Shown in pieces: positions 7,433-24,253 of a DNA stretch of 38,545 nt (within the stretch, counting starts at the first letter, position 1; every line of letters begins with the position of its first letter). The translations under genes and the position numbers were made by a program. This stretch comes from Pyrinomonadaceae bacterium (GTDB lineage Bacteria > Acidobacteriota > Blastocatellia > Pyrinomonadales > Pyrinomonadaceae): assembly GCA_013811945.1 (NCBI GenBank), contig JACCUI010000103.1, positions 1-38,545 of the forward strand, written 5' to 3'. A model generated the notes under the pieces. It worked only from the letters and a program-made list of their open reading frames with translations. It was not told the origin of the DNA and did no database searches.

Positions 7433-7963
7433 ATGTCTGAGACAACAAAACAGAAAGTACACATCCGGTTCACGCTGAATGGTGAACCCAGTGAAGTTGC
7501 GTTTGCTCCGCATAAGACGCTGCTGGAAGTGCTGCGCGAAGATCTGAATCTGACGGGGACTAAGCATGGTTGTGAACTGGGCGAGTGTGGTACTTGCGCG
7601 GTGTTGGTCGATGGCCGGGCAATCCTCTCGTGTCTGATGCTGGGACTCGATGCCGCAGAACGCGACGTCAAAAGCATTGAAGGTATGGCTGATGGAGCAC
7701 AACTTCATCCACTGCAGGAAACATTTGCGGACACAGGCGCTGCACAGTGTGGTTATTGCTCTCCTGGATTTCTACTCGTCGCTGAGGAACTTCTCAAAAA
7801 GAACCCCAGCCCCACTCGCCAGGTAATCAAGGAAGCTCTGTCTGGGAATATCTGCCGCTGTACCGGCTACATAAAGATCTACGAAGCCGTGGAACTGGCG
7901 GCAGCGCGTATGCGTGGCGAAGAAATGGAATTGCCTCGGGAGAGCGTTTATGGCTATGAATAA
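7433..7963 (+). CDS. hcrC: [2Fe-2S] subunit of a molybdenum hydroxylase, 4-hydroxybenzoyl-CoA reductase type
   Basis: This is the small electron-transfer subunit of a xanthine oxidase-family enzyme. The 176-residue protein has the plant-type ferredoxin cluster motif GCELGECGTCAVLVDGR...SC at about residues 44-66, and the second [2Fe-2S] domain with CGYCSPGF near 104 and NICRCTGYIKIYEAVE near 140. Both clusters are intact. The length is typical of HcrC/CoxS/XdhC-type small subunits. The assignment to the 4-hydroxybenzoyl-CoA reductase branch comes from the beta subunit at 12870 rather than from this gene. A weak CCAGGA lies upstream of the ATG. The large subunit follows after a 196-base gap containing a hairpin at 8055-8115. 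Confidence 0.85.
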   Translation: MSETTKQKVHIRFTLNGEPSEVAFAPHKTLLEVLREDLNLTGTKHGCELGECGTCAVLVDGRAILSCLMLGLDAAERDVKSIEGMADGAQLHPLQETFADTGAAQCGYCSPGFLLVAEELLKKNPSPTRQVIKEALSGNICRCTGYIKIYEAVELAAARMRGEEMELPRESVYGYE

Positions 7964-8054
7964 AGTTAGCCGCAGATACGCGCGGATCGCCCGGATAAGG
8001 AACCAGGTTAGAGAATTAGCAGGGATCACTCAGGAACAGTAGTCTCAAAGGTCA

Positions 8055-8115
8055 GGAAGAGTGGTTCACCCCCGCCTGCCTATCATGAGAGTTGGGCGGG
8101 GTAAACCACCCTTCC
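8055..8115. repeat. hairpin between the small and large molybdenum hydroxylase subunit genes
   Basis: GGAAGAGTGGTTCACCCCCG (8055-8074) pairs with CGGGGTAAACCACCCTTCC (8097-8115) with few mismatches. The stretch just before it, 7968-8005, is another degenerate array (CCGCAGATACGCGCGGAT). No T-run follows, so it may be an mRNA processing or stability structure inside an operon rather than a terminator. Confidence 0.7.
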
Positions 8116-8159
8116 CAACCTGCAAATTTATTCAGGATGAGAGACAAACAAAAGATTGA

Positions 8160-10613
8160 ATGTCTAACAATCGGAAAAACGAAGAGCCTCTAAGAGTAGT
8201 TGGCAAACCATTCCGCAAAGTCGATGCCCGGGCAAAGTGCATGGGCCAGACGAAGTTTGCCGACGACATCGTGCTGCCCAGGATGATCTACGCGAAGATC
8301 CTGCGCAGCCATCATCCCCATGCCCTGATAAAACGAATCGATGCCTCCAAGGCGCTCGCGACCCCGGGCGTTTTTGCAGTTATCACCGGCCAGGACTTGC
8401 CCAACTCCTATGGAATCCTTCCGGTCAGCCAGGATGAACATGCGCTCTGTATCGACAAAGTCCGTTTTATCGGCGACCCGGTCGCAGCCGTGGTGGCAAG
8501 CGACGAAGACACCGCCTTCGACGCGATGAATCTCATTGAAGTCGAATATGAGAACCTGCCCTCAATCTCGACGATTGACGAAGCGCTGCTGATCGAAGAG
8601 CCGCGCATTCACGAATACGGGGATGGCGGCAACATCCACAAAAAGGTTTCGTTGGAATTTGGCGACGTCGAGGAGGGTTTTGCTGAGGCCGATCTGGTTC
8701 GCGAAGACACTTTCTTCTACGAAGGCAATACCCATCTACCCCTCGAACAACACGCTGCCATTGCTTATTTCGATACCGACAATAAATTAACAATCTGGAG
8801 CTCGACGCAGACGCCGCATTACGTTCATCGCGCCCTCGCGAAAGTTCTGGAGTTGCCGGCGAGCCATGTTCGCGTCATTGCCACCCCCAACGGAGGCGGC
8901 TTTGGCGGCAAGAGTGATCCTTTCAATCACGAGATCATCGTCTGCAAGCTATCGATGATCACGGGTCGTCCGGTCAAATGCACGCTCACCCGCGAAGAGG
9001 TTTTCTACTGCCACCGCGGCCGTCATCCCGTGTTGATGCAGGTGAAGACGGGAGTTAAGAAAGACGGCTCGATTACCGGGATGCACTTCAAGTCGTTCCT
9101 GGACGGCGGGGCCTATGGCAGCTACGGCGTCGCCAGCACCTTCTACACGGGCGCGTTGCAGACCGTCACGTACGACGTGCCCCGCTACAAATTTCAGGGT
9201 GTACGCGTGTTTACCAACAAGCCGCCGTGTGGCCCCAAGCGCGGTCACGGCACACCCCAGCCGCGTTACGCAGTCGAAGTTCAACTCGACAAAATCGCCG
9301 AACAACTGGCCCTGGATCCGGCACAGATCCGCAGACAGCACTTGGTGAAACCTTACTCGGTCACCGCCAACTATCTACGCATCGGCAGCATGGGACTCGG
9401 GAAGTGTATCGACAAGGTTGTCGAAGGCTCAGACTGGAAGAGCAAGTTTTCAGGCTGGAACAAAGAGAATCGCAAGTTGCCTTTTGGCAAAGGCATTGGC
9501 ATCGCTTGCAGCTCCTATATCTGCGGTGCAGGCCTGCCGATTTATTGGAACAGCATGCCGCAGTCGGGCGTGCAGCTGCGGCTGGATCGCCAGGGCGGCG
9601 TCTGTGTGATGTGTGGCTCGATAGATATTGGCCAGGGCTCTGATTCAATCCTCGCCTACATCGTCGCTGAAGTTCTGGGAATCGATCCCTTCGATATACG
9701 CATCGTCACCGCGGACACGGATCTGACGCCGGTAGATCTCGGCAGTTACTCGAGCCGCGTTACGTTGATGACCGGCAACGCCGCAATACAGGCGGCTGAA
9801 AGGGCGCGCGAGCTGTTGGTGATGGCGGTATCGGAAAAACTCGGCGTACCAATCGAGAATATCTCGCTGGCCGAACGTAGAGTCTTCGACGTGGAAAATC
9901 CGGATGTTGGAGTGTCATTTGCCGAGGCAGTGGTATTGGCGGAATCGAAGTTCGGCACGATTGGCACTGTCGGATCCTACTCGCCGCCGCCGTCGCCCGG
10001 TAAGTTCAAAGGCGCCGGTGTTGGACCATCACCTGCTTACAGCTACACGGCCGCGGTTGCGGAAGTGGATGTCGATCCCTCAACCGGCATTGTGGTTGTC
10101 GAGCGCATCTGGATTGCTCACGACATCGGCCAGTCAATCAACCCTATGCTGGTAATGGGTCAGGTTGAAGGCAGTGTCTACATGGGTCTGGGCGAAATTC
10201 TGATGGAAGAGATGGCTTATCGCGGTAATCGCAACGTGGTCCACAAGTTTCCTTCCATGCTGGAATACAAGAGCCCAACGACGATGGAGATGTGCGACGT
10301 TAAGACCTATCTCATCGAGGACGCCGATCCCAATGGGCCGTTTGGCGCGAAGGAAGTCGGACAGGGACCGTTGCTTCCCGTGCCTCCGGCAGTCGCTAAT
10401 GCTGTTTACGATGCGGTGGGAGTGCGTATCGACGAAGTGCCGATCATGCCGGAGAAGGTTTTGAAGGCGCTGCGTGAAAAAGCGAAGGGTGGCGACGGCC
10501 GTTACGGCCCTGATTCAGTGCCTGGGGTTGAGTGGCCCCCGCCGATGCGAGTGCTAACGCCGGCAGAAGGCGGCGACGGACGCGAGATGCCGCGGGTGGC
10601 GGTGCATTCGTGA
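8160..10613 (+). CDS. hcrA: molybdopterin-binding large subunit of a 4-hydroxybenzoyl-CoA reductase-type enzyme
   Basis: The 817-residue catalytic subunit of a xanthine oxidase-family molybdoenzyme. The N-terminal domain (about 10-125) has GQTKFADDIVLPRMIYAKIL and FIGDPVAAVVA. The cofactor domains include ATPNGGGFGGKSDPFNHEII, CGPKRGHGTPQPRYAVE and CGSIDIGQGSDSILAYIVAE. Near the C-terminus NGPFGAKEVGQGPLLPVPPA carries the expected catalytic glutamate at about residue 732. In the 4-hydroxybenzoyl-CoA reductase family the enzyme reductively removes the para hydroxyl of the CoA ester; related enzymes instead hydroxylate aromatic or aldehyde substrates. The real substrate is unknown here. The ATG at 8160 lacks a strong ribosome binding site. 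The beta subunit gene is separated from this one by a 2.2 kb accessory block, which is unusual. Confidence 0.85.
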   Translation: MSNNRKNEEPLRVVGKPFRKVDARAKCMGQTKFADDIVLPRMIYAKILRSHHPHALIKRIDASKALATPGVFAVITGQDLPNSYGILPVSQDEHALCIDKVRFIGDPVAAVVASDEDTAFDAMNLIEVEYENLPSISTIDEALLIEEPRIHEYGDGGNIHKKVSLEFGDVEEGFAEADLVREDTFFYEGNTHLPLEQHAAIAYFDTDNKLTIWSSTQTPHYVHRALAKVLELPASHVRVIATPNGGGFGGKSDPFNHEIIVCKLSMITGRPVKCTLTREEVFYCHRGRHPVLMQVKTGVKKDGSITGMHFKSFLDGGAYGSYGVASTFYTGALQTVTYDVPRYKFQGVRVFTNKPPCGPKRGHGTPQPRYAVEVQLDKIAEQLALDPAQIRRQHLVKPYSVTANYLRIGSMGLGKCIDKVVEGSDWKSKFSGWNKENRKLPFGKGIGIACSSYICGAGLPIYWNSMPQSGVQLRLDRQGGVCVMCGSIDIGQGSDSILAYIVAEVLGIDPFDIRIVTADTDLTPVDLGSYSSRVTLMTGNAAIQAAERARELLVMAVSEKLGVPIENISLAERRVFDVENPDVGVSFAEAVVLAESKFGTIGTVGSYSPPPSPGKFKGAGVGPSPAYSYTAAVAEVDVDPSTGIVVVERIWIAHDIGQSINPMLVMGQVEGSVYMGLGEILMEEMAYRGNRNVVHKFPSMLEYKSPTTMEMCDVKTYLIEDADPNGPFGAKEVGQGPLLPVPPAVANAVYDAVGVRIDEVPIMPEKVLKALREKAKGGDGRYGPDSVPGVEWPPPMRVLTPAEGGDGREMPRVAVHS

Positions 10614-10639
10614 GGCTCTAAAACCAATGGGCAAAGGTG

Positions 10640-10852
10640 ATGCATAAATATGAAGTGATTATTTACTGGAGCAATGAAGACCAGGTCTTCGTTGCCGAGG
10701 TGCCTGAACTCTCAGGTTGCATGGCTCATGGCGAGACGAAGGTTGACGCACGGGCGAAGGCAGACCAAGCAGTTCAACTCTGGCTCGACACTGCGGCAGA
10801 ATTTGGTGATCCGATTCCAGAACCGAAGGGTCAGCGTTTGATGCTGGCGTAG
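10640..10852 (+). CDS. HicB-like small protein
   Basis: The 70-residue protein has the HicB-type N-terminal fold: a YEVIIYWSNEDQVFVAEVPE strand pair followed by LSGCMAHGETKVDARAKADQ and AVQLWLDTAAEFGDPIPEP. HicB proteins are antitoxins partnered with HicA mRNA interferases, but no HicA is adjacent and the C-terminal DNA-binding domain is absent. It may be an orphan antitoxin or one of the stand-alone HicB-domain proteins. A GTG lies immediately before the chosen ATG. It starts the accessory block inserted between the hydroxylase large and beta subunit genes. Confidence 0.75.
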   Translation: MHKYEVIIYWSNEDQVFVAEVPELSGCMAHGETKVDARAKADQAVQLWLDTAAEFGDPIPEPKGQRLMLA

Positions 10853-10892
10853 ATCGATGGCGAAGGCGTGACGGCACATTCGTGAGTAAGAA

Positions 10893-11186
10893 ATGAAGCA
10901 TGGCCTTCTGGAATTTGAATGGGATCCAAAGAAGGCCGCGAGGAATCTTCGAAAGCACCGCGTCTCGTTTGAAGAGGCGGCTTCAGTCTTCAACGACGAG
11001 TTTGCGACGGTCTATGAGGATCCTGATCACTCGCAACACGAACGAAGATACCTGTCGGTCGGCGCTTCCGCACGCGGGAGACTGTTAATGATTGCCTACT
11101 CCTATCGAGGTGTAAGGATAAGAATAATCAACGCAAGAAAAGTGACAAAGGAGGAAAGGGAAATGTATGAAGAAGAAGATCGATGA
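10893..11186 (+). CDS. brnT: BrnT family toxin
   Basis: The 97-residue protein matches BrnT, a ribonuclease toxin of the RelE fold. It has the FEWDPKKAARNLRKHRVSFE opening, then EAASVFNDEFATVYEDPDHS, ERRYLSVGASARGRLLMIAY and the IRIINARKVTKEEREMYEE end. The BrnT signature residues (WD..KA..N..KH.VSFE, R.I.AR..T..ER..Y) are all visible. BrnT cuts RNA and is neutralised by a partner that also represses the operon. The gene overlaps the next one by 20 bases, the usual coupling of a toxin with its antitoxin. Confidence 0.88.
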   Translation: MKHGLLEFEWDPKKAARNLRKHRVSFEEAASVFNDEFATVYEDPDHSQHERRYLSVGASARGRLLMIAYSYRGVRIRIINARKVTKEEREMYEEEDR

Positions 11187-11445
11187 AGATTCGGATGAAT
11201 TGAGACCCGAGTATGATCTCAAAAAGCTCAAATTTGTTGGACGAGGGATCTTTGCAAAACGTTATCGTTCAGGCACCAACCTCGTTTTGTTGGAGCCCGA
11301 TGTTAGGAAAGCTTTTCCGGATGACGAGTCGGTGAACGAAGCCTTGCGAGTTATTGCGAAGGTAGCGAAACAACAAGCTTCGCGAGTTCGGAAGACCCCC
11401 GTTCGAACTCGAGCACAATCATCCCGAGTGCGGCGGGCCGGCTAG
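11167..11445 (+). CDS. antitoxin partner of BrnT
   Basis: This 92-residue basic protein has the pattern YDLKKLKFVGRGIFAKRYRS, then GTNLVLLEPDVRKAFPDDES and VNEALRVIAKVA. It resembles the small antitoxins found beside BrnT that have an MNT/ribbon-helix-helix-like core, not classical BrnA. The overlap with brnT and a strong AAGGAGG upstream of its start (about 11148-11154) support tight coupling. A basic tail (RVRKTPVRTRAQSSRVRRAG) could bind DNA for autoregulation. The start at 11167 overlaps the end of brnT. Confidence 0.7.
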   Translation: MKKKIDEDSDELRPEYDLKKLKFVGRGIFAKRYRSGTNLVLLEPDVRKAFPDDESVNEALRVIAKVAKQQASRVRKTPVRTRAQSSRVRRAG

Positions 11446-11450
11446 GATTG

Positions 11451-11603
11451 ATGAGCCAACAATCAACCGATAGGCCTTTGGTCTTTTCCGTTGTTGACGA
11501 CGACGGCGAAAACGTAACCATCGAAATCTCGGAAGAGGACTATCAGCACGATCTGGCAGCCGGGATCGATGAAGCGGACACCCTCAAACCCGGGTCGCTA
11601 TAA
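11451..11603 (+). CDS. small acidic protein of unknown function
   Basis: A 50-residue frame begins at an ATG five bases after the antitoxin stop: MSQQSTDRPLVFSVVDDDGE, then an acidic stretch NVTIEISEEDYQHDLAAGID. I do not recognise a family. A second, 21-codon frame (MKRGGFLARHPELKLKDRKK, 11605-11670) follows one base later and may be a basic partner or chance. The tight spacing after the toxin-antitoxin pair suggests cotranscription, but coding potential is uncertain. Confidence 0.4.
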   Translation: MSQQSTDRPLVFSVVDDDGENVTIEISEEDYQHDLAAGIDEADTLKPGSL

Positions 11604-11697
11604 GATGAAACGTGGTGGTTTTCTCGCGCGCCACCCCGAGTTGAAGCTCAAGGATAGAAAGAAAGCGTGACGCTGAACGAATTACGACCGCAAAATT

Positions 11698-12873
11698 ATG
11701 AACCCCGGAATATTTCTAATCCAGGATAACGACGAGCTTGTTGAAATGAATGAGCAGGCGTACGACTCCGAGGATCTATTACAGACACTACTTGCCAAGT
11801 ATCCTTCGCTATTGGCAGGGAGCCAAATAGATGCCAAGGCGCCAAGGAAATGGCTCTTAATCGGCCGCGAGTTCGGCGTGCCTTCTGAAGAAGGCGGCGC
11901 CGATCAGTGGTCGCTGGACCACCTGTTTCTTGATCAGGATGCGATACCAACCATCGTGGAGGTGAAACGAAGCACGAACACAACCATTCGCCGAGAAATC
12001 GTTGGCCAGATGCTGGATTACGCGGCAAATGCAGTTGTTTATTGGCCCGTTGACCGAATTCGCTCGAGGTTCGAAACTAATTGCGAAAGACAAGGCTTTG
12101 ATCCTGAAGAGAGACTCAGAGATTTCCTCGAGTCAGTAGTAGAGCCAGAGGAGTTTTGGCAAAAAGCCAATACAAATCTTCAAGCCGGCAAGATACGTCT
12201 GCTATTCATTGCTGACGAAATTCCTACAAAGCTTCAACGCATTGTCGAGTTCTTGAACGAACAGATGAACCCCGCCGAGGTGCTTGCGATTGAAATCAAG
12301 CAATTTGTCGGGCAGGGCTTGAGGGGCCTCGTGCCAAGAGTTATTGGTCAAACCGCTGAAGCAATAGAGAAGTCTCCCATTTCGGAGGTTGGTCAGATTC
12401 AGCTTGAGTTCTGGACTGCCTTCAAAAGTTACATGGATGGTACCAGTAAAATTGCCTGTCCAAAGCCAGCACCCCAGAGTTGGATGAATCATTCGATTGG
12501 TGTAGGTGGTTTTGGTCTGTCCTCGATAGCATCAACATGGAGTTCGGAGACATCGAGCTACGAGCATCCTGAAATCCGGGCTGAATTCTGGATGAACGGC
12601 AGTGATTTCAGGACTCTTTTTGGCATGTTGGAGGCTCAGAGATCAGAGATTGAAAGCGAAGTGGGACAAGGACTAGTCTGGGACAATTCACCAGAGAAGA
12701 AGCGCTCGCGCAAGATCTACATGCGGAAATCTGCTGATTTCCTTGATCAAACTAAGTGGCCTGAACAACATGAGTGGTTGCGCGTCAGTCTTGAAAAGCT
12801 TAACCGAGTATTCGCCCCGCGCGTGAAAAACCTAGACGGCTTGAGAGTTAGCGCCAGTACTCAGTCACCATGA
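11698..12873 (+). CDS. PD-(D/E)XK nuclease-like protein with DUF4268 region
   Basis: The 391-residue protein has a restriction-endonuclease-like N-terminus. The pattern D74...E88-V-K90 (in LDHLFLD and TIVEVKRST) followed by QMLDYAANAV fits the PD-(D/E)XK core, as in NucS/DUF91-like and DUF4268-associated proteins. The middle (about 190-215) predicts an IRLLFIADEIP strand-turn. The C-terminal part (about 240-380) resembles DUF4268, with FWTAFKSYM, IRAEFWMN and KIYMRKSADF. Proteins of this type occur in accessory and defence-like regions; the function is unproven. Its stop overlaps the start of the FAD subunit gene in an ATGA arrangement, so the two are probably translationally coupled although functionally unrelated. 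Confidence 0.75.
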   Translation: MNPGIFLIQDNDELVEMNEQAYDSEDLLQTLLAKYPSLLAGSQIDAKAPRKWLLIGREFGVPSEEGGADQWSLDHLFLDQDAIPTIVEVKRSTNTTIRREIVGQMLDYAANAVVYWPVDRIRSRFETNCERQGFDPEERLRDFLESVVEPEEFWQKANTNLQAGKIRLLFIADEIPTKLQRIVEFLNEQMNPAEVLAIEIKQFVGQGLRGLVPRVIGQTAEAIEKSPISEVGQIQLEFWTAFKSYMDGTSKIACPKPAPQSWMNHSIGVGGFGLSSIASTWSSETSSYEHPEIRAEFWMNGSDFRTLFGMLEAQRSEIESEVGQGLVWDNSPEKKRSRKIYMRKSADFLDQTKWPEQHEWLRVSLEKLNRVFAPRVKNLDGLRVSASTQSP

Positions 12874-13874
12874 TGCGTCTACCCAAATTCGACTACCGTG
12901 TGCCGCGAGAAATCTCGGAGGCGGTGAAGATCATGGGCGATGTCGGACCTGAGGGGCAGTTTGTGGCGGGAGGTACGGATCTCTATCCCAACATGAAGCG
13001 CCGGCAGCAGACGCCGAAGACTGTTATCTCAGTCATGCGGGTGACTGAGTTGAATCAGATCTCAGGTGAGGGGAAGTCAGGTTTGAGGATCGGTGCGTCG
13101 GTAACTCTAACTGATGTCTGCGATCACCCAATCGTCAACCGTGATTATCCAGTTGTTGCCCACGCCGCGCGCACCATCTCCACTCCGATTCTGCGCAACA
13201 TGGGCACGATTGGCGGCAACTTGCTGCTCGACACACGCTGCAACTATTACGATCAAAACTACGAGTGGCGCAAAGGCATCAACTTCTGCTTAAAGAAGGA
13301 CGGCGACATCTGTTGGGTGGCGCCCGGGAGTTCCAAGTGCTGGGCGGTGCAGTCCTCGGATCTCGTGCCAGTAATGGTGGCCATCGGCGCGAGGTTGCGA
13401 TTTGCTTCGACACTTGGCGATCGGGTGATCGATGCCGCAGGTCTATACAACGACGATGGTATCTACTATCTGCACAAAAGGCCTGATGAGCTCCTCGTCG
13501 ATATTCAACTACCGCCAACCAACGGCTGGCGCGCTTCTTACCAGAAGCTTCGCCGTCGAGGGGCGTTCGATTTTCCGGTGCTGGGCGTGGCCGCCTGGGT
13601 GCAGTTGGAACCGCGAGCCGGTGGCGCTAGTGGCAGCGAGCGAGTCGTTAAAGACGCAAAGATAATCCTTGGAGGAATTGCGCCTTCGCCGATCGAAGTA
13701 AAAGAGGCTGCGGGTTCACTGATCGGCCAACCCCTCGATCGTGAGCACATCGAAGCGGCTGCTGAAGCTGCTTACGTCAAGGCCCGTCCACTCGACAACA
13801 CCGACTTCGTCATGAACTGGCGCAAACAGATGACGCGACAATACACGCTCCGCGCGCTCAACGAATTAGTCTAA
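12870..13874 (+). CDS. hcrB: FAD- and [4Fe-4S]-binding subunit, 4-hydroxybenzoyl-CoA reductase beta type
   Basis: The 334-residue protein has the FAD-binding fold of xanthine oxidase-family medium subunits (FVAGGTDLYPNM near 31-42, TISTPILRNMGTIGGNLLLD near 102-121). Unlike most of them it carries an inserted loop with four cysteines at residues 124, 140, 148 and 157, a CX15CX7CX8C pattern. From memory this is the spacing of the extra [4Fe-4S] cluster ligands in the beta subunit of Thauera aromatica 4-hydroxybenzoyl-CoA reductase, offset by two residues. That cluster lets ferredoxin electrons flow backwards to the molybdenum site. Its presence is the main reason to place this enzyme in the reductase branch. 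An alternative start is the ATG at 12873. Confidence 0.85.
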   Translation: MMRLPKFDYRVPREISEAVKIMGDVGPEGQFVAGGTDLYPNMKRRQQTPKTVISVMRVTELNQISGEGKSGLRIGASVTLTDVCDHPIVNRDYPVVAHAARTISTPILRNMGTIGGNLLLDTRCNYYDQNYEWRKGINFCLKKDGDICWVAPGSSKCWAVQSSDLVPVMVAIGARLRFASTLGDRVIDAAGLYNDDGIYYLHKRPDELLVDIQLPPTNGWRASYQKLRRRGAFDFPVLGVAAWVQLEPRAGGASGSERVVKDAKIILGGIAPSPIEVKEAAGSLIGQPLDREHIEAAAEAAYVKARPLDNTDFVMNWRKQMTRQYTLRALNELV

Positions 13875-13942: not shown

Positions 13943-14032
13943 CTAAGAACGGTCCACAAAATCACACGAACGGACACGAAGAGCCCTTAGTTCGAGTCAT
14001 TTCGTGTGGTTTCGTGGATCGTCCTATTCTTT
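13943..14032. repeat. inverted pair of TTCGTG/CACGAA arrays upstream of the nucleotidyltransferase gene
   Basis: The left arm contains ATCACACGAACGGACACGAA (13961-13980). The right arm contains TTCGTGTGGTTTCGTGGATC (14001-14020). This is the same text as the inner stem of the palindrome at 4961-5215, and both sites keep the inverted arrangement. Just before it, GCAGGCTGCTGAAAAACT (13927-13944) resembles the terminal sequence of some insertion elements, but no transposase is present. The right arm ends about 15 bases before the ATG at 14047. Confidence 0.8.
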
Positions 14033-14046
14033 CTGAGAATGGTTTC

Positions 14047-14706
14047 ATGAGTGAAGTTTCTGCAATCCTCCTGGCCGCTGGTCGATCAGAGCGCATGGGC
14101 GCTTTTAAACCTCTCCTTCCCTTCGGTGAGACAACCGTTGTTCGTAAGTGCATCCAAAACCTCCGCGGGGCTGGAGTTGAAGACATTGTTGTGGTGCTGG
14201 GCCACCGCGCTGAGGACCTTCAGCAGGCTGTAGATGATCTCGATGTCAGATTTACCATTAACCCAGATTCAACCAGCGAAATGAGTACCTCAATCGCCTG
14301 TGGCGTCAGAGAACTCCTTCCAGAAATCAGGGCTGTTCTTATTGCCTTGACGGATCAGCCGGCGGTTCCGCCCGACGTCATAAGGGCCATCGTGAAAGAA
14401 TGGACATCAGGAGAGAGGCTGGTCGTCCCCGAGTTTGAAGGCCACGGTGGTCATCCCGTCCTGATTGAGCTCCGCTTTCGCGACGAGCTGTTAAAGCTGG
14501 ATTCGGGCGGGGGCCTTAGATCCTTTCTCAGAGCACACCAGGAGCAGGTCCGACGGTTACCTGTTAATTCGGCCTTCATTGCGCGGGACATGGATACATG
14601 GGATGATTACCGAGCCTTACACCAGGAAGTCTTCGGTGTTCCACCAGCAGACCGGGAGTCAACGGGCCCAAGTAACCCGGACTCCGAAAGAGACTCGCTT
14701 AATTGA
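14047..14706 (+). CDS. MobA-like nucleotidyltransferase, probable molybdenum cofactor cytidylyltransferase (MocA type)
   Basis: The protein of about 219 residues is a GT-A fold nucleotidyltransferase. It has AILLAAGRSERMGAFKPLLP near the N-terminus, VVVLGHRAEDLQ, and ALTDQPAVPPDVIRAIV, where the DQP motif is characteristic of the MocA/xanthine dehydrogenase maturation branch. It also has the GGHPVLI segment. MocA converts molybdopterin to the cytosine dinucleotide form used by xanthine oxidase-family enzymes, so its place directly after the hydroxylase subunit genes fits. An in-frame GTG at 14014 lies inside the repeat, so I use the ATG at 14047. There is no clear Shine-Dalgarno. Confidence 0.8.
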   Translation: MSEVSAILLAAGRSERMGAFKPLLPFGETTVVRKCIQNLRGAGVEDIVVVLGHRAEDLQQAVDDLDVRFTINPDSTSEMSTSIACGVRELLPEIRAVLIALTDQPAVPPDVIRAIVKEWTSGERLVVPEFEGHGGHPVLIELRFRDELLKLDSGGGLRSFLRAHQEQVRRLPVNSAFIARDMDTWDDYRALHQEVFGVPPADRESTGPSNPDSERDSLN

Positions 14707-15693: not shown

Positions 15694-15767
15694 TCCTTGA
15701 GTAACACCCGGATGGTTGCTCCAACCGCAAGTTATCGACGGCGTCATTGTTCTTAGTCTTCTGTCCT

Positions 15768-16166
15768 ATGAGCCTCAAGTTCATTAATCCCGCGTCGCTC
15801 GGTCCCCCGCTAGGTTATTCGAATGGCGTTTTGACTGAGCCGGGAACGCGATTGCTATTCATTGCCGGACAACTCGGCTGGAATGAACGACAGGAGATTG
15901 TTAGCGCGGATTTTGTCGAACAGTTTGATCGCGCGCTAGCCAACGTAGTTGCAGTTGTGACCGAGGCCGGCGGACGGCCAGAACAAATCGCACGCCTGAT
16001 TATGTACGTTACCGATAAGAACGAGTACGACGCCCACACACCTGAAATTGGTGATCGCTACCGCACCCACATGGGGAAACACTTTCCGGCGATGGTGCTG
16101 GTGGAAGTGAAGAGCTTGCTTGATGACGAGGCGAAGGTCGAAATCGAAGCGATCGCGGCTCTGTGA
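15768..16166 (+). CDS. RidA/YjgF family protein lacking the catalytic arginine
   Basis: The 132-residue protein has the RidA fold: LGYSNGVLTEPGTRLLFIAG, FDRALANVVAVVTEAGGRPE, LIMYVTDKNEYDA and the C-terminal PAMVLVEVKSLL...AKVEIEAIAAL. Classical RidA enzymes hydrolyse reactive enamines and imines using an arginine in the PARSxVEV segment; here that position is methionine (PAMVLVEV), while the downstream glutamate is kept. It therefore belongs with Rid relatives of unknown activity. Such proteins are common in pathways with amino-substituted intermediates, and this one starts the run of CoA-ester genes, so a role in handling the amino group of anthraniloyl-CoA products is possible. The start is MSLKF at 15768; an upstream in-frame start at 15747 is less likely. 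Confidence 0.8.
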   Translation: MSLKFINPASLGPPLGYSNGVLTEPGTRLLFIAGQLGWNERQEIVSADFVEQFDRALANVVAVVTEAGGRPEQIARLIMYVTDKNEYDAHTPEIGDRYRTHMGKHFPAMVLVEVKSLLDDEAKVEIEAIAAL

Positions 16167-16296: not shown

Positions 16297-16339
16297 CCCG
16301 ATCAGTTTTATGTGCGGAGGCATCGGATTGATCACCAGC

Positions 16340-17134
16340 ATGAATCAGCCCACGAGTTTTCTTTACGAGCAGACGGACACGGGCGTGGCCACCATCACTC
16401 TCCACCGCCCCGGACGCCTGAATGCGCTTACATTCGAGGTTTATCGAGAGCTAACTGATACGTTCGCGGCCCTGCGCGTCGAAAGCGACGTGCGCGTGGT
16501 GGTTATCACCGGATCAGGGCGGGCTTTCTGTTCCGGCGGCGACGTTCATGACATTATTGGAAAACTCTTCGGGCGCGACATGGAAGGTCTGCTGGAATTC
16601 ACCCGAATGACTTGCGATCTGATTCGCAACATTCGTAGTTTGCCGAAGCCGGTGATTGCAAGTTTGAATGGCACAACGGCAGGAGCTGGCGCTTGCCTAG
16701 CACTAGCGTCCGATATCAGGATCGCCAGCCCGGAAGCCGGGATTGCTTTCCTTTTTGTAAAGGTGGGTCTCTCAGGCGCCGACATGGGAGCAGCGCACTT
16801 ATTGCCGCGAGTGGTTGGTTTGGCAAAGGCCACTGAATTGCTATTAACCGGCGATTTTATTACCGCGCCGGAGGCGGAACGAATTGGTCTATATAACAGG
16901 GTGGTACCCGCGGAAGAGTTGGTGAACGTTACTCGCGAGTTCGCAGAACGCCTGGCGCAGGGACCTTCTTTCGCGCTGGCCAAGACGAAGGAGATGCTCA
17001 ATCGGGAGATTGATATGAGTCTCAACGCTGCTCTGGACTGCGAGGCCCAGGCTCAGGCCATTTGCATGCAGCATCCTGACTATCGCGAAGCTTATGAAGC
17101 ATTTGTTGAAAAGCGCGCGCCTAAGTTCAAATGA
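16340..17134 (+). CDS. enoyl-CoA hydratase/isomerase family protein
   Basis: The crotonase-fold protein of 264 residues (if started at 16340) shows VATITLHRPGRLNALTFEVY, the oxyanion-hole segments SGRAFCSGGDVHDI and NGTTAGAGACLALASDIRIA, and the C-terminal helix ending in FVEKRAPKFK. The segment that normally holds the first catalytic glutamate reads FLFVKVGLSGADMGAAHLLP, with no glutamate there, as in PaaG-like isomerases rather than true hydratases. It may act on the ring-reduced or amino-substituted CoA ester produced by the neighbouring flavoenzymes. An ATG at 16310 in frame is an alternative start. The acyl-CoA dehydrogenase gene follows after a repeat. Confidence 0.82.
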   Translation: MNQPTSFLYEQTDTGVATITLHRPGRLNALTFEVYRELTDTFAALRVESDVRVVVITGSGRAFCSGGDVHDIIGKLFGRDMEGLLEFTRMTCDLIRNIRSLPKPVIASLNGTTAGAGACLALASDIRIASPEAGIAFLFVKVGLSGADMGAAHLLPRVVGLAKATELLLTGDFITAPEAERIGLYNRVVPAEELVNVTREFAERLAQGPSFALAKTKEMLNREIDMSLNAALDCEAQAQAICMQHPDYREAYEAFVEKRAPKFK

Positions 17135-17277: not shown

Positions 17278-18429
17278 ATGGATAAGTTCATCGATCAACT
17301 GCCCTTCTTCACTCCTGAGCACCGGAACCTTGCGAGCGCCGTGGCATCCTTTGTAGAAGAGCAGATTGAACCTCGGGCTATTGAAGAACGCGATGTAGAC
17401 GGGGGTACGCGCGACTACGTGAGTGTGCTGGCCAGTGCTGGTTTGCTCCGCTATGCGGTCGCTTCGCACGATAAGCGGTTTGATGTTCGCTCCCTCTGCT
17501 TGATTCGGGAGGCTCTGGCCTACTCGTCAGCCTTGGCTGACCTGGCTTTCGTTATGCAGGGGTTGGGTACATATGCGATTAGCCAGGCGGCCCCGGAGCA
17601 TGTCCGGGATTTTTGGGTTCTGCGCGCAGCGGAAGGAAGGGCCATCGCTGCATTTGCTTTGACAGAACCCGAAGCCGGCTCCGACGTTTCCGCCATTAGA
17701 ACCACCGCTCAGCGCGATGGTGACGCCTGGGTCATCGACGGTAGCAAGCGTTTCATCTCAAATGCGGGAGTCGCGGATTTCTATACCGTGTTTGCCCGAA
17801 CGGGAACTCAAACCGGCGGACGGGCAGACCTTTCCGCGTTTGTTGTGAGTGCCCGGATGCCCGGCTTCACCGTAGTCGAGCGGACCGAGATGATATCACC
17901 GCACCCCATCGGTGAAATTGCTTTTAACGGATGTCGCGTCCCGGCGGAGGACATGGTGGGACCTGAAGGAGATGGTTTTGTCCTGGCGATGCGTACGCTC
18001 GACACCTTTCGTGCCAGCGTGGGAGCCGCTGCTTGCGGCATGGCCCGGCGCGCGCTTGATGAATCTCTTCGCTATGCAGCCAACCGTAAACAATTTGGGC
18101 GCTTACTAGCGGAGCATCAACTCATTCAGGAGAAGCTGGCCGATATGATCACAGAGCTTGACGCCGCCCGGCTGTTGGTTTATCGCGCTGCCTATCTCAA
18201 AGACATTAGGACCGGACGGGCGAGTCGTGAGGCCAGCGAGGCTAAGCTCTACGCCACCGAAGCTGCCGGCCGAATTATCGATCAAGCCGTGCAGATTCAT
18301 GGCGGTGCTGGGCTCGTGCGCGGGAGCGTGGTGGAACGTCTTTACCGGGACGTGCGCGCTTTGCGTATCTACGAAGGGACCTCCGAGATCCAGAAACTCA
18401 TCATTGCCGGCCAGCTTTTGAAGGAGTAG
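17278..18429 (+). CDS. acyl-CoA dehydrogenase family protein
   Basis: The 383-residue flavoprotein has the full acyl-CoA dehydrogenase architecture: an N-terminal helical domain (LASAVASFVEEQIEPRAIEE), the FAD-contacting segment AFALTEPEAGSDVSAIRTTA, DGSKRFISNAGVADFYTVFA, the C-terminal helical domain YAANRKQFGRLLAEHQLIQE, and RALRIYEGTSEIQKLIIAGQ near residue 370. It would introduce a double bond next to the CoA carbonyl. Its gene ends directly at the start of the flavin monooxygenase gene (TAG then ATG), strong evidence for one transcript. In the anthraniloyl-CoA pathway known from Azoarcus such dehydrogenases act after the ring is dearomatised, so this is a plausible role. Confidence 0.92.
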   Translation: MDKFIDQLPFFTPEHRNLASAVASFVEEQIEPRAIEERDVDGGTRDYVSVLASAGLLRYAVASHDKRFDVRSLCLIREALAYSSALADLAFVMQGLGTYAISQAAPEHVRDFWVLRAAEGRAIAAFALTEPEAGSDVSAIRTTAQRDGDAWVIDGSKRFISNAGVADFYTVFARTGTQTGGRADLSAFVVSARMPGFTVVERTEMISPHPIGEIAFNGCRVPAEDMVGPEGDGFVLAMRTLDTFRASVGAAACGMARRALDESLRYAANRKQFGRLLAEHQLIQEKLADMITELDAARLLVYRAAYLKDIRTGRASREASEAKLYATEAAGRIIDQAVQIHGGAGLVRGSVVERLYRDVRALRIYEGTSEIQKLIIAGQLLKE

Positions 18430-19557
18430 ATGAAGATCAACATCATCGGCGGCGGGCCGGCGGGTTTGTACTTCGCCATCCTGATGATGAAGGCGAATCC
18501 GGTGAACGAAATCACAGTCCATGAACGCAACGGGCCAGATGACACTTTCGGTTGGGGCGTAGTTTTCTCCGGTAGAACGCTCAGAAATCTTCGTGATGCT
18601 GACGCAGAATCTCACGCCCAGATAACCAGACAATTTGAGGCCTGGGACAATGTCGACGTGGTGCGCGGCGACGAAAAGATATCTGTTCGCGGCAACAGCT
18701 TCTCCGGCGTCTCCCGCCTGCAGTTACTAAAGATTCTGCAACGACGCGCGCAGCAACTCGGAGTTGCAATTCTTTTTCATTCGGAAATTAATGACATCGA
18801 GTCACGACGGGCCGATTGCGATCTGCTGGTGGGTGCCGACGGTATCAACAGCACTGTTCGACAGCGCTTTGCAGAACACTTTGGTCCGACTCTGAGCGTT
18901 CGCTCGAATCGTTACATCTGGTATGGCACGAATCAGCTATTCCACGGTTTGACGCTGACTTTCCGGGAGAATGAAGCCGGAATCTTCTCGGCGCACTCCT
19001 ACAAATTCAACCAGACTACAAGCACTTTTATTGTCGAGTGTGATCCTCAGACATGGGAGCAGGCGGAGTTGACTACCATGAATGAGGCCGACACCCGATC
19101 GTACATCGAACAGGTCTTTGCGCCAGATTTGCAGGGGCATCCCCTGCTCTCAAACAATTCAAAGTGGATTAATTTCATTTTAGTTAAAAATGCGCGTTGG
19201 GCTTTTGATAATGTCGTGCTCTTGGGAGACGCCATGCATACGGCCCATTTTTCGATCGGTTCGGGAACCAAGCTGGCAATCGAGGATGCCATTGCGCTGG
19301 CGGAGAGTTTTCAACGCCACGATGACGTGAGCGAAGCTCTCCTTGAATTTGAGTCGAATCGGAAACCGTACATCGAGGAGTATCAAGCGGCCGCCCTCGA
19401 GAGCATGCTCTGGTTCGAGAACATAAGGCAGTACTTGCACCTTGACCCGATAAGATTGGCATACTCGCTAATGATGCGCAGTGGGAGAGTGGACCCCGAG
19501 GAACTAAAGAAACGCGATGCGGCGTTTGTAGCAGCGTACGAGGCAGCAATTTCGTAG
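18430..19557 (+). CDS. FAD monooxygenase matching the N-terminal half of 2-aminobenzoyl-CoA monooxygenase/salicylyl-CoA 5-hydroxylase
   Basis: The 375-residue class A flavin monooxygenase has a Rossmann FAD motif IIGGGPAGLYFAILM at residues 4-18. It also has the diagnostic ERNGPDDTFGWGVVFSGRTL, the DLLVGADGINSTVR segment, and LLGDAMHTAHFSIGSGTKLA near residue 264. The TFGWGVVFS and HTAHFSIGSGTKLA-like blocks are those I associate with salicylyl-CoA 5-hydroxylase and 2-aminobenzoyl-CoA monooxygenase/reductase. Those enzymes are about twice as long and carry an Old Yellow Enzyme domain after this part. Here the protein stops after the monooxygenase domain, and a separate OYE gene lies next to it on the other strand. 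Expected role: hydroxylation of anthraniloyl-CoA with NAD(P)H and oxygen. Confidence 0.85.
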   Translation: MKINIIGGGPAGLYFAILMMKANPVNEITVHERNGPDDTFGWGVVFSGRTLRNLRDADAESHAQITRQFEAWDNVDVVRGDEKISVRGNSFSGVSRLQLLKILQRRAQQLGVAILFHSEINDIESRRADCDLLVGADGINSTVRQRFAEHFGPTLSVRSNRYIWYGTNQLFHGLTLTFRENEAGIFSAHSYKFNQTTSTFIVECDPQTWEQAELTTMNEADTRSYIEQVFAPDLQGHPLLSNNSKWINFILVKNARWAFDNVVLLGDAMHTAHFSIGSGTKLAIEDAIALAESFQRHDDVSEALLEFESNRKPYIEEYQAAALESMLWFENIRQYLHLDPIRLAYSLMMRSGRVDPEELKKRDAAFVAAYEAAIS

Positions 19558-19566
19558 AGGAAGTCT

Positions 19567-19660
19567 CTCCGTGGGCCCCACCGCTGTCGCCACCGAGAGC
19601 GCTCGGGGAGTGACGTCCTTTACAATATGTTCTCCAACACCAGGTGGGGCGCCCACGGAG
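19567..19660. repeat. inverted repeat between the convergent monooxygenase and OYE genes
   Basis: CTCCGTGGGCCCCACC (19567-19582) and GGTGGGGCGCCCACGGAG (19643-19660) are complementary apart from two extra bases. A GGAGTGACG text follows both a central copy (near 19607) and the right arm. The element begins 9 bases after one stop codon and ends 8 bases before the other, where it could end transcription from both sides. Confidence 0.8.
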
Positions 19661-19668
19661 TGACGCCC

Positions 19669-21141
19669 CTACAACTGCCACTTAGGAGGCAGCAGGCGAC
19701 GACGACCATCCGCTGCCAAACTAATTTCCGGGTCATCGAGTTCCGTGCGGTCCCAAAGCTTGCAGGTAACCTGCTTGTGCGCCTGATCGAGGGCCTCGCA
19801 ATAGTTGGTGTAGGTACAACGACGAATTTCCGTACCGCGACCGAGTCGGACTTTCACGAACCAATCAGGATCGGCAAGCGCTTGACGAGCTAGACCGGCG
19901 AGGTCAGCTTCGCCTCGCCGCAAAATTCCCTCCGCTTGCTCAAACGTGGTAATTCCGCCGCAGGCTACAACGGGAGTGCTGAAACCTGCGGCGTTTACGG
20001 CCCGCTTGATCGCCGCGACCTGCGGAACATTCCTACCGAATGGTCCGGTTTCGTCAGAGAGAGTTGTCGGCATGCATTCATAGCCGCTCTTGCCGGTATA
20101 GGGGTAAACGGCCTGCCCAACTTTAGGTTGTTGCGCATCCTCAAATTTGCCGCCTTTTGAGATCGAGAGAAAATCCAATCCCGCCCGAGCAAACTCAACC
20201 CCGAAGTAGGTCGCGTCATCAACCCGGTTTCCCCGTTCAATCACTTCGTCACCAAGAAAACGAACGCCCACTAGGTAGTCATCACCGACGCACTCGCGCA
20301 CAGCGCGGTACACCTCCAGCGGCAAACGAACGCGGTCCTCACGCTGTCCGCCGTAACCATCTGTGCGAGTATTTCGCGCACTCAGAAACGAGGCCATGGT
20401 GTAAGCATGCGCGTAGTGGAGTTCGACTCCGTCAAATCCTGCTTCGCGGGCGCGCCCGGCGGCCGCGGCGAAGATTTCCGGCAACACCTCCGGCAACTCA
20501 CGCACGTGCGTTAACTCGGTGTCGGTGACGCGCTCTCGATATCCAAAGCGGAGTGACTCCAACTCCCGCTCATCAAGGATGTGCTCAAGGACTTCGTCGC
20601 TGGTGCTCGCCAGAAACGCTCGCACCTCGGCTTCGTTACGTCCGAGCCAACTTTGATCGTTGCTTATCTCAGCAAGTGTTTGTAAGTGACGGTCAGTTAT
20701 ACGTAGAAATTGTTTGAAATATTTCGCCTGCTCGGGTCGACGCTTGACCGCGAGAAAATCGATGATCTGAATAAAAAGATGCGTCCGGCCTTCGCTCGCC
20801 TCGCGAACCGCTGCCACCAGCTGCCGCAACCCCGCGATGAAACGATCGTCGCCGATCCTGAGTAGCGGTCCACTGGGGATGTCACGGACTCCGGTGGCCT
20901 CAACGACGAGCGCTCCCGGCTGTCCTGCTGCAAATCTGCGATACCAATCGATGTTTGCCTGGGTTACGAAACCATCTTCAGTCGCACGCCAGGGCACCAT
21001 TGCCGGAACCCAGGTGCGGCTGGTTAAGTCACTACGTCCAATTCGTATCGGCTGGAAAAGCAGCGAGCGGGCCGCCTCTAACGCATTGGGCCAACGCGTT
21101 TCAGGAATTGCGTGTTTAACAGGATTTGGAAACTTCCACAT
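19669..21141 (-). CDS. NADH:flavin oxidoreductase, Old Yellow Enzyme family
   Basis: The 490-residue protein is an FMN-dependent TIM-barrel enzyme: LFQPIRIGRSDLTSRTWVPA at the first strand, GFDGVELHYAHAYTMASFLS near residue 240 with the paired His-x-x-His, ARNTRTDGYGGQREDRVRLP, GGITTFEQAEGILRRGEADL and LARQALADPDWFVKVRLGRG. An unusual insert of about 80 residues follows the strand ending in HLFIQI. The C-terminus has three cysteines (CTYTNYC and later KQVTCKLW) that might bind a metal cluster. OYE domains reduce activated double bonds; in 2-aminobenzoyl-CoA monooxygenase/reductase this activity is the C-terminal half. Adjacency to the monooxygenase suggests the two could be separate halves of that activity. 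It is convergently oriented, so not in the same transcript. Confidence 0.85.
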   Translation of the reverse strand: MWKFPNPVKHAIPETRWPNALEAARSLLFQPIRIGRSDLTSRTWVPAMVPWRATEDGFVTQANIDWYRRFAAGQPGALVVEATGVRDIPSGPLLRIGDDRFIAGLRQLVAAVREASEGRTHLFIQIIDFLAVKRRPEQAKYFKQFLRITDRHLQTLAEISNDQSWLGRNEAEVRAFLASTSDEVLEHILDERELESLRFGYRERVTDTELTHVRELPEVLPEIFAAAAGRAREAGFDGVELHYAHAYTMASFLSARNTRTDGYGGQREDRVRLPLEVYRAVRECVGDDYLVGVRFLGDEVIERGNRVDDATYFGVEFARAGLDFLSISKGGKFEDAQQPKVGQAVYPYTGKSGYECMPTTLSDETGPFGRNVPQVAAIKRAVNAAGFSTPVVACGGITTFEQAEGILRRGEADLAGLARQALADPDWFVKVRLGRGTEIRRCTYTNYCEALDQAHKQVTCKLWDRTELDDPEISLAADGRRRLLPPKWQL

Positions 21142-21618: not shown

Positions 21619-22806
21619 TTGACTGACGACCTGCTCAAATGGCGTAGCGAGTTTCCTATCCTAGACGAGACAGTCTACCTGATCTCGCATAGCCTGGGAG
21701 CAATGCCTAGGGCCACTTACGATCGAATGCACGATTATGCTGAGGCCTGGGCGACACGCGGGGTGCGGGCGTGGTCCGAGGGCTGGTGGAATATGCCGGT
21801 GACGGTGGGCAACGACGTGGCGCGAATCATAGGCGCGGACCCGGGCACCGTGGTCATGCATCAGAATGTCTCAGTTTGTCAGTCGTTGATTCTTTCCTGT
21901 TTCGAACCTACAGCGGGGAGAAATAAGATTGTCTATTCGGAGCTCAACTTTCCTTCGGTGATGTATGTCTACGAGGCTCACGCACGTAACGGGAGTTTGC
22001 GCATTGAAACAGTGAAATCCGATGACGGTATCACGGTGCCAATCGAGCGCATGTTGGCAGCCATCGACGAGGAGACTCTTCTCGTGCCTTTCTCCCATGT
22101 TCTATTCAAGAGCGGTTTTCTCCAGGACGCCAGAGCGATTACCGAGCGGGCCCATGAGGTAGGCGCAATGGTCGTGCTCGATGCTTATCAGTCCGCCGGA
22201 ACCGTTCCGTTTAGTGTCAAAGATCTAAATGTAGATTTCGCAACCGGCGGATCGGTCAAGTGGCTTTGTGGCGGGCCAGGCGCGGGGTATCTTTACGTCC
22301 GTCCCGATTTGCATACTCAGCTCCAACCAAAAACTACGGGTTGGATGGCCCACGAGGAGCCTTTTGCCTTTGATAAAGAGCTCCGCTACGCTCCAGGTGT
22401 TGCTCGCTTTCTGCACGGCTCGCCCGCGATTCCGGCGCTTTACGCCGCCCAGTCGGGTTATCAAATTATTAATGAAATAGGTGTGGAGAATATTCGCAGC
22501 AAGAGTGTAAGCCAAACTTCTCTTTTGATCGACCTGGCCCAGGAAGCAGGCTTCACCGTCACGAGCCCAAGGAGTTCATCACAGCGGGGGGGCACCGTCA
22601 CGGTTATGCACGAGCATGCGGCGGCCATCACCAGCGAGTTGGTGAGCCGCGAGTTTATTGTTGATTTTCGCCCCGGCGCGGGTGTGCGCATCTCTCCTCA
22701 CTTCTACACCACGGACGAAGAGTTGAAACTAATCATCGGGGAGATGAAGACGATCAGGGACAGTCGCGCGTACGCCAGGCACGAAGCGGCCGGTGCGGCA
22801 TTCTGA
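21619..22806 (+). CDS. kynU: kynureninase
   Basis: Kynureninase is a PLP enzyme that cleaves kynurenine to anthranilate and alanine. The 395-residue aminotransferase class V protein has the family's VYLISHSLGAMPRATYDRMH, RAWSEGWWNMPVTVGNDVAR and IIGADPGTVVMHQNVS. It also has VVLDAYQSAGTVPFSV with the PLP-ring aspartate (D188), and SVKWLCGGPGAGYLYVRP with the probable Schiff-base lysine K214. The tail has VDFRPGAGVRISPHFYTTDE. Length and motif order are typical, although some residues differ from classical kynureninases, so a related beta-elimination activity cannot be excluded. The next gene is tryptophan 2,3-dioxygenase, which supplies the precursor. Anthranilate would pass to the CoA ligase downstream. 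Confidence 0.85.
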   Translation: MTDDLLKWRSEFPILDETVYLISHSLGAMPRATYDRMHDYAEAWATRGVRAWSEGWWNMPVTVGNDVARIIGADPGTVVMHQNVSVCQSLILSCFEPTAGRNKIVYSELNFPSVMYVYEAHARNGSLRIETVKSDDGITVPIERMLAAIDEETLLVPFSHVLFKSGFLQDARAITERAHEVGAMVVLDAYQSAGTVPFSVKDLNVDFATGGSVKWLCGGPGAGYLYVRPDLHTQLQPKTTGWMAHEEPFAFDKELRYAPGVARFLHGSPAIPALYAAQSGYQIINEIGVENIRSKSVSQTSLLIDLAQEAGFTVTSPRSSSQRGGTVTVMHEHAAAITSELVSREFIVDFRPGAGVRISPHFYTTDEELKLIIGEMKTIRDSRAYARHEAAGAAF

Positions 22807-22809
22807 AAA

Positions 22810-22893
22810 GCTGATCTTGATCCTTTGGTTTTGGACTTGATCCAAACCTCAAAGAAGTGGAATTCAAAGATCAAAGTACAGAGATCAAAGCTC
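22810..22893. repeat. degenerate CTTTGATC-type array with foldback
   Basis: The stretch before the dioxygenase start contains CTTTGGTTTTGGACTTGATC (22835-22854), which folds on CCAAACCTCAAAG, then AAAGATCAAAGTACAGAGAT and CAAAGCTC. The text resembles the CTTTGTA arrays at 17144-17268. It continues to 4 bases before the ATG at 22897, and the ORF read through it upstream is not conserved-looking. Confidence 0.55.
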
Positions 22894-22896
22894 ATT

Positions 22897-23757
22897 ATGT
22901 CTAATGACTACGGCAAGGCAGCCCCGCTTTCATACAACAAATACCTCCGAGTTCCTGACCTGATCGGTTTGCAAGAGTGTCTCTCGGGTCCGGAACACCA
23001 CGATGAACTTCTTTTTATCACCGTCCATCAAGCCTACGAATTATGGTTCAAACAGATTCTTCACGAGCTTGACGCGGCCATGGTAATGATGAATAAAGAC
23101 CGCCTTCCCTCCGCCGGCCGCACCCTGCGGCGTGTAGTCGAGATAGAAAAACTGCTGGTTACCCAGATTCACATTCTGGAGACTATGACTCCCATCAGTT
23201 TTTTAGGGTTCCGCGAACAATTGAATCCCGCCAGCGGCTTCCAATCAATGCAGTTTCGCGAGATTGAATTCGCCTCGGGTCTCAAGCTCGAGGGCATCCT
23301 GAATGAGTTTCGCAACGATTTGTTTGCTTACGAACGCCTGCAGAAACGGTATCAGGCCCCGTCCTTAAATGAGATCTTATTTGCGGTGTTAAGACATCGC
23401 GGACTTGACGCACCGGCGGATGACAAATCCCTAACCGAAGGAGAAAGGAAAAAGCTATACGAGAGGCGGGGCCAGGCAGTGCTCGAGGTTCTTACCCACT
23501 TCGAGGAGCGCTACGAAGAGTTTCAACTGGCTGAAGCGCTGCTGGAACATGACGAGTTTTTTTCGCTCTGGCGCTCACATCACATAAAGATGGTCGAGCG
23601 CATGGTAGGCGCAAAGCGAGGCACTGGCGGTTCCGAAGGAATTGGGTATTTGCAAACTACTCTGAGCCAGAAATTCTTCCCTGAGCTTTGGGAGGCGCGT
23701 ACCTATCTGGACGTCAAACATGGAGCTGGAGGTTGTCCCTTTTCATCACCCACATAG
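22897..23757 (+). CDS. kynA: tryptophan 2,3-dioxygenase
   Basis: A haem enzyme that opens the tryptophan indole ring to N-formylkynurenine. The 286-residue protein has LSYNKYLRVPDLIGLQECLS, the substrate-contacting FITVHQAYELWFKQILHELD with His44, LETMTPISFLGFREQLNPAS and SGFQSMQFREIEFASG. Near the C-terminus, HHIKMVERMVGAKRGTGGSE supplies the expected haem-ligand histidine and GTGGS loop. The length is that of bacterial dioxygenases. An in-frame upstream start at 22825 only translates the repeat, so I start at the ATG at 22897. It follows kynureninase by 90 bases. A formamidase needed between the two steps is not present in the window. Confidence 0.96.
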   Translation: MSNDYGKAAPLSYNKYLRVPDLIGLQECLSGPEHHDELLFITVHQAYELWFKQILHELDAAMVMMNKDRLPSAGRTLRRVVEIEKLLVTQIHILETMTPISFLGFREQLNPASGFQSMQFREIEFASGLKLEGILNEFRNDLFAYERLQKRYQAPSLNEILFAVLRHRGLDAPADDKSLTEGERKKLYERRGQAVLEVLTHFEERYEEFQLAEALLEHDEFFSLWRSHHIKMVERMVGAKRGTGGSEGIGYLQTTLSQKFFPELWEARTYLDVKHGAGGCPFSSPT

Positions 23758-24183: not shown

Positions 24184-24198
24184 TAGGGAATTGAGATC

Positions 24199-24235
24199 GG
24201 GTCCCCAAGTGGGCAGCCCGCTTGGGGTGGTGGTA
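24199..24235. repeat. REP element, family B copy 1
   Basis: A 37-base hairpin element: GGGTCCCCAAGTGGGCAGCC, then CGCTTGGGGTGGTGGTA. It matches the copy at 31197-31233 at 34 of 37 positions in the same relative orientation. It lies just upstream of the ligase start and explains why an upstream in-frame start of that gene (24191) is not credible. Confidence 0.85.
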
Positions 24236-24253
24236 AGAATCTTATTGTCTGCG

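Follow-up and report, generated by a model that had tools for sequence, protein, structure and literature searches.

Gene Organization of the Locus

The window, by which we mean the whole 38,545-nucleotide stretch that was analyzed, is from a Pyrinomonadaceae bacterium. Its genes at 7433–13874 are predicted to encode the gamma, alpha, and beta subunits of a molybdenum/FAD/iron-sulfur enzyme belonging to the 4-hydroxybenzoyl-CoA reductase (4-HBCR)-like branch of the xanthine oxidase family (Table 1). The Pfam domains found on the three subunits (Fer2/Fer2_2, FAD_binding_5/CO_deh_flav_C, and Ald_Xan_dh_C/MoCoBD) correspond to the layout of that family. The enzyme is found in the genus, family, and class of this organism and in many other families of one phylum, which gene content indicates to be the Acidobacteriota, near Pyrinomonadaceae. 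Measured against near relatives, dN/dS was 0.03–0.07 for alpha, 0.03–0.04 for gamma, and 0.06–0.12 for beta, a value that places the beta gene under purifying selection. The MocA-like gene comes after beta across the family.

The gamma-alpha-beta genes are split between alpha and beta by a toxin-antitoxin-like insertion of 2.3 kb (10614–12869). The alpha-beta gap is mostly 0.3–2.6 kb in relatives from the family and from f2, and less than 0.2 kb in the other lineages read; this gap is a repeated insertion spot. An ORF at 106–765, at the contig's left end, has a reverse-transcriptase-like translation that resembles a group II intron protein.

Table 1. Coordinates of Genes and Sites in the Window
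Feature	Coordinates	Strand	Basis
Gamma subunit, two [2Fe-2S] domains (Fer2, Fer2_2)	7433..7963	+	Pfam PF00111/PF01799
Alpha subunit, molybdopterin-binding (MoCoBD_1/2), HcrA-like	8160..10613	+	PDB, fold, and TIGR03194 matches
Alpha codon 679 (Glu here; Gln in 75/75 proteobacterial Hcr-like alphas)	10194..10196	+	Alignment
Alpha codon 735 (Gln), aligned with the catalytic Glu of the family (HcrA E726)	10362..10364	+	Gapless alignment
HicB-like antitoxin, between alpha and beta	10640..10852	+	PF15919
BrnT-type toxin, in insertion	10893..11186	+	PF04365, 91.9 bits
Probable BrnA-like partner	11167..11445	+	Position only, no Pfam match; similar ORF in other loci
DUF4268 protein, in insertion	11698..12873	+	PF14088
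Beta subunit, FAD-binding domain with four-cysteine loop	12870..13874	+	Pfam domains, PDB alignment, AlphaFold2 model, fold match
Predicted [4Fe-4S] loop, C124–C157	13239..13340	+	Cysteine spacing
MocA-like molybdenum cofactor cytidylyltransferase	14014..14706	+	TIGR03310, 142 bits (below cut-off of 186)
RidA-family protein	15747..16166	+	
Enoyl-CoA hydratase family	16310..17134	+	NF006107, above cut-off
Acyl-CoA dehydrogenase	17278..18429	+	
Flavin monooxygenase, like N-terminal half of salicylyl-CoA/2-aminobenzoyl-CoA monooxygenase-reductase	18430..19557	+	NF006101, 469 bits, profile positions 1–384 of 768
Old-yellow-enzyme family reductase, like C-terminal half of monooxygenase-reductase	19669..21141	-	PF00724; NF006101 positions 544–673
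Kynureninase-like	21619..22806	+	TIGR01814, 161.5 bits (below cut-off of 246)
Tryptophan 2,3-dioxygenase-like	22825..23757	+	TIGR03036, 247 bits (below cut-off of 390.7)
Benzoate-CoA ligase family protein	24191..25861	+	TIGR02262, 542 bits (above cut-off of 375)

The Four-Cysteine Loop of the Beta Subunit

The beta ORF is intact and encodes 334 amino acids. Cysteines lie at positions 84, 124, 140, 148, and 157, and the last four are spaced CX15CX7CX8C, the ligand spacing that the initial annotation had ascribed to the Thauera enzyme. That observation was correct. The best PDB match of beta was 1rm6_B (HcrB; E = 7.8e-48, 166 bits), with CO dehydrogenase next (112 bits), and the alignment with 1rm6_B places C-X15-C-X7-C-X8-C in the same columns of both proteins with no gaps. 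The exact spacing was present in 51 of 52 acidobacterial orthologues, in 78/80 proteobacterial Hcr-like betas, and in both betas of an intermediate type (2/2), but in 0 of 12 FAD subunits from elsewhere in the xanthine oxidase family, among them PaoB and XdhB of E. coli. Three betas without the exact spacing keep the four cysteines and have a short insertion. Judged by these alignments, the spacing is shared with HcrB and is not due to chance, and the loop is real and homologous to that of 4-HBCR, as had been proposed. Fold comparison of the AlphaFold2 model of beta (pLDDT 93.9) likewise ranked 1rm6_B first (TM 0.89/0.92). The loop is, by its sequence pattern, common (at least 581 loop-bearing relatives in a scan of the collection). 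A plasmid search for close relatives of beta found none.

The initial annotation linked the loop to reductive dehydroxylation as in anaerobic aromatic degradation, the process in which 4-HBCR removes a hydroxyl group from an aromatic acid. Of the two readings offered there, an aryl-CoA reductase step and a facultatively anaerobic lifestyle, either may hold. The loop alone is no proof of this, because aerobic-looking groups have it and because the aldehyde-oxidizing PaoABC has a cysteine loop, albeit with another pattern; the FAD subunit of that E. coli enzyme, PaoB, carries an Fe-S subunit annotation. A literature search by exact terms on a [4Fe-4S] cluster in PaoABC found nothing. What does favor the claim is the enrichment of benzoyl-CoA-dearomatizing enzymes in genomes that carry the enzyme (see below). 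These genomes also encode FAD subunits of a second type (L067–L070), with a cysteine pattern of their own (C-X4-C-X9-C-X7-C in both L067 and L069) that is perhaps another cluster loop.

Relationship to 4-HBCR

Alpha matched 1rm6_A with 601 bits (next family, 308), and the top fold match of its model was 1rm6_D/A (TM 0.88); the input rows for this model were Hcr-like only (pLDDT 78), and its loops were not relied on. Structure prediction for both alpha and beta thus pointed to 4-HBCR. For gamma, the best PDB matches, 3hrd_D and 1rm6_C, were nearly tied. All three subunits scored below the NCBIfam cut-offs for 4-HBCR: gamma with 169.6 against 257.8 bits (TIGR03193), alpha with 824 against 994.55 bits (TIGR03194), and beta with 248.1 against 404.55 (TIGR03195).

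The alpha tree supported both the window clade and the proteobacterial clade containing Thauera at 100 (SH-aLRT). Together with the intermediate Acido2 type, they were set apart from nine other xanthine-oxidase-family rows (SH-aLRT 99). The beta tree gave the same groups (window clade, SH-aLRT 99), with weak support (17) at the root of the superclade, and the gamma tree did not resolve them. The Thauera clade of HcrA and HcrB excludes the alpha and beta of the window, which fall in a separate, deep acidobacterial clade. By phylogeny, alpha groups with 4-HBCR and not with aldehyde or xanthine dehydrogenases, and beta likewise stands apart from the latter; for gamma, the tree does not decide. 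The scores, the position outside the Thauera HcrA clade, and the replacement of the catalytic Glu by Gln speak against an identification of the enzyme as 4-HBCR itself. On this sequence evidence, the enzyme is its own clade in the 4-HBCR-like branch and not a 4-HBCR orthologue.

Replacement of the Catalytic Glutamate

The HcrA E726 column, which by its motif and by residue numbering is that of E1261 in bovine xanthine oxidase, is Gln in 47 of 47 window-type (own-clade) alphas. Outside the clade it is Glu in 89/89 sequences (75/75 Hcr-like, 2/2 Acido2, and 12/12 others). In a set of 20 near genomes, Gln was present in each of the 10 window-type alphas read and Glu in 19 of 20 other alphas; the one paralogue without Glu contains an internal stop and does not align at this column. 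Position 679 shows the reverse exchange, from Gln to Glu, relative to the Hcr-like enzymes. There are about 30 fixed differences between these alphas and 4-HBCR-type sequences, the catalytic residue among them. According to reviews (PMC3624778, PMC8305194), this Glu acts as a base in the activation of Mo-OH, and its substitution by Ala abolished the activity of D. gigas aldehyde oxidoreductase (PMC3624778) and of KdhL (PMC8305194). As the residue is held to be essential in the chemistry of the xanthine oxidase family, a clade without it could be used to test which hydroxylation or reductive dehydroxylation steps need it.

Association with Benzoyl-CoA Pathways

In a near set of 78 genomes (42 carriers of the enzyme and 36 others), BoxB was found above cut-off in 29/42 carriers versus 7/36 others, and BcrB-like proteins in 14/42 versus 0/36. 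Across 396 genomes of the phylum, 30 of 55 carriers had BoxB, compared with 35 of 341 non-carriers (odds ratio 10.5, p = 7e-13). These statistics treat genomes as independent, and kinship was handled only by collapse to genus level (p = 2e-8) or to family codes (p = 9e-4). Outside the class, BcrB reached at least 200 bits in 19/41 carriers versus 6/39 controls, and 13 carriers exceeded the curated cut-off. Either BoxB or a class I benzoyl-CoA reductase was present in 69 of 83 carriers and in 16 of 75 others; in about one in six carriers, neither dearomatizing enzyme was detected. In the assembly that contains the window, which is 67% complete, a cytochrome oxidase was detected, and BoxB and BcrB were not. 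The Acido2 type had no BoxB association in the same 396 genomes. The phenylacetate pathway was rejected as a partner, since PaaA was present in only 7 of the 396 genomes and was not associated with the enzyme.

Translations of the relevant operons place BoxB beside a BoxC-like gene, bcrC-B-A-D-like genes with an enoyl-CoA hydratase family gene, and bcrA-B-C together with genes for a hydrolase and a zinc alcohol dehydrogenase-like protein. Operons resembling class I benzoyl-CoA reductase occur in a genus mate (G005, with bcrB-A-D-like genes) and in other Acidobacteriota. On the genome associations, many members of this common, little-cultured soil phylum may send aromatic acids through benzoyl-CoA by the aerobic Box and the anaerobic class I reductase routes. 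The bcrC-B-A-D-like operons at L205 and L245–L252, in which BcrB scores 200–320 bits (below the benzoyl-CoA reductase cut-off), may represent a benzoyl-CoA reductase branch that has yet to be described; in several of them, amidohydrolase-like and SDR genes lie upstream.

Gene Neighborhood

Genes of a 2-aminobenzoyl-CoA route sit downstream of gamma-alpha-beta: those for the enoyl-CoA hydratase, the acyl-CoA dehydrogenase, the flavin monooxygenase and old-yellow-enzyme halves, the kynureninase-like and tryptophan dioxygenase-like proteins, and the benzoate-CoA ligase family protein. The two halves of what is elsewhere a fused 2-aminobenzoyl-CoA monooxygenase/reductase are here separate genes in opposite orientation (18430–21141), an arrangement that is consistent in the genus. 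The initial annotation had remarked on the tryptophan genes beside the enzyme. They do adjoin it in this genus, but nowhere else among the loci read, and in one genome (G043) part of the block adjoins BoxB-BoxC instead. Because the adjacency is limited to this genus, 2-aminobenzoyl-CoA is only suggested as a possible substrate by the gene order.

Outside the genus, the neighbors vary, the exceptions being MocA and, in part of the lineages, a TetR gene. Conserved neighborhood was rejected as a guide to the substrate, as only gamma-alpha-beta, often MocA, and sometimes TetR recur across the phylum; across the clade, no neighboring gene directly ties gamma-alpha-beta to an aryl-CoA step. In 11 loci outside the family, the gene immediately upstream of gamma encodes TetR; loci with this arrangement include L178, L182, L185, L190, and L061–L064, from several lineages, and the two TetR genes scanned have a TetR_C_24 domain (PF17932).

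Discussion

We give roughly even odds to the interpretation that the enzyme, which forms a separate clade with 4-HBCR-like machinery, reduces an aryl-CoA and supplies benzoyl-CoA pathways. An aromatic-ring reductase of a new variety is the probable identification, and its mode of action on some aryl-CoA is most likely that of 4-HBCR. Sequence and models show the beta fold, the domains that bind the cofactors, and the HcrB-type four-cysteine loop. The loop would bind a [4Fe-4S] cluster, and electrons would pass from a low-potential donor through this cluster, FAD, and the two [2Fe-2S] clusters to molybdenum. There, a hydroxyl or amino group would be removed reductively from an aryl-CoA ester, and the product, benzoyl-CoA or a close analogue, would enter the Box or benzoyl-CoA reductase pathway. 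Since Gln735 would remove the general base needed for hydroxylation, the enzyme may be reductive-only, or protonation may occur via another group, for which Glu679 is a candidate. The exchange perhaps locks the enzyme in the reductive direction, but it could equally mean a different reaction, as 4-HBCR-type sequences keep the Glu. A more speculative extension, which we offer tentatively, is that in an old lineage of xanthine-oxidase-family enzymes, strongly selected in Acidobacteriota, the change from Glu to Gln made a dedicated one-way aryl-CoA reductase (e.g., a reductive deaminase of 2-aminobenzoyl-CoA) that serves both oxygen-dependent and oxygen-independent degradation of benzoyl-CoA.

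A conceivable though doubtful alternative is that the enzyme oxidizes an aryl or acyl substrate, acting as a hydroxylase or dehydrogenase in the usual direction; the [4Fe-4S] cluster would serve just as a link to a ferredoxin-type acceptor, and another residue, such as Glu679, would stand in for the Glu. The cytochrome oxidase encoded in the genomes, the wide occurrence of the loop in Proteobacteria (aerobic-looking groups included), the Fe-S annotation of PaoB, and the new conserved carboxylate at alpha 679 are all consistent with such an enzyme. Against it, the family's hydroxylation base is replaced in every one of the 47 alphas, and the genome association is with benzoyl-CoA dearomatization. 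It is unlikely that the enzyme is a true 4-HBCR of an acidobacterial lineage in which the exchange of Glu for Gln is tolerated: 4-HBCR is the closest characterized relative in sequence and fold, and many carriers have benzoyl-CoA reductase operons, but all three equivalog cut-offs are missed, the enzyme lies outside the Thauera clade, and the fixed differences in alpha extend to the catalytic residue.

We know of no gene assigned to the reported 2-aminobenzoyl-CoA reductase activity, a gap that this enzyme would fill if it were a true 2-aminobenzoyl-CoA reductase. The proposal that it takes the amino group off 2-aminobenzoyl-CoA, derived from tryptophan through kynurenine, to give benzoyl-CoA draws on the adjacent kynureninase-like, tryptophan dioxygenase-like, benzoate-CoA ligase family, and monooxygenase/reductase genes, on the part of the same cluster beside BoxB-BoxC in G043, on an association of the enzyme with tryptophan dioxygenase (odds ratio 5.5), and on the conversion of anthranilate to benzoyl-CoA reported for Azoarcus evansii (PMC4539516), but we consider it improbable, as the neighborhood is confined to the genus, the dioxygenase was not detected in 23 of 55 carriers, and the adjacent monooxygenase represents another fate for 2-aminobenzoyl-CoA.

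Comparison with Known Systems

The aryl-CoA reductase that we favor can be set beside four known or related enzymes. E. coli aldehyde oxidoreductase PaoABC also has three subunits and a cysteine-rich loop in its FAD subunit, but the cysteines are at 121/131/140/159, the reaction is aldehyde oxidation, and the catalytic Glu is present. Ucdh, the urolithin C dehydroxylase from Enterocloster bolteae, compared by its published description, carries out a reductive dehydroxylation within the xanthine oxidase family, and its nearest characterized relative, like that of the window enzyme, is 4-HBCR; unlike the window enzyme, it is listed with FAD and [2Fe-2S] clusters only and acts on a free phenol (PMC12771579). 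The Acido2-type Hcr-like enzymes (L065 and L066) share the loop and the phylum, but they keep the catalytic Glu, are nearer to the proteobacterial Hcr clade, and are without the BoxB association. HcrABC of Thauera aromatica (1rm6) is the most similar in its three-subunit layout, its identical loop spacing, and the best sequence and fold matches to alpha and beta. The window enzyme differs from it in sequence (identity with Thauera sequences about 41% for alpha and 31% for beta), in scoring below the TIGR03193, TIGR03194, and TIGR03195 cut-offs, in belonging to a separate deep clade, and in carrying Gln735 in place of Glu and Glu679 in place of Gln.
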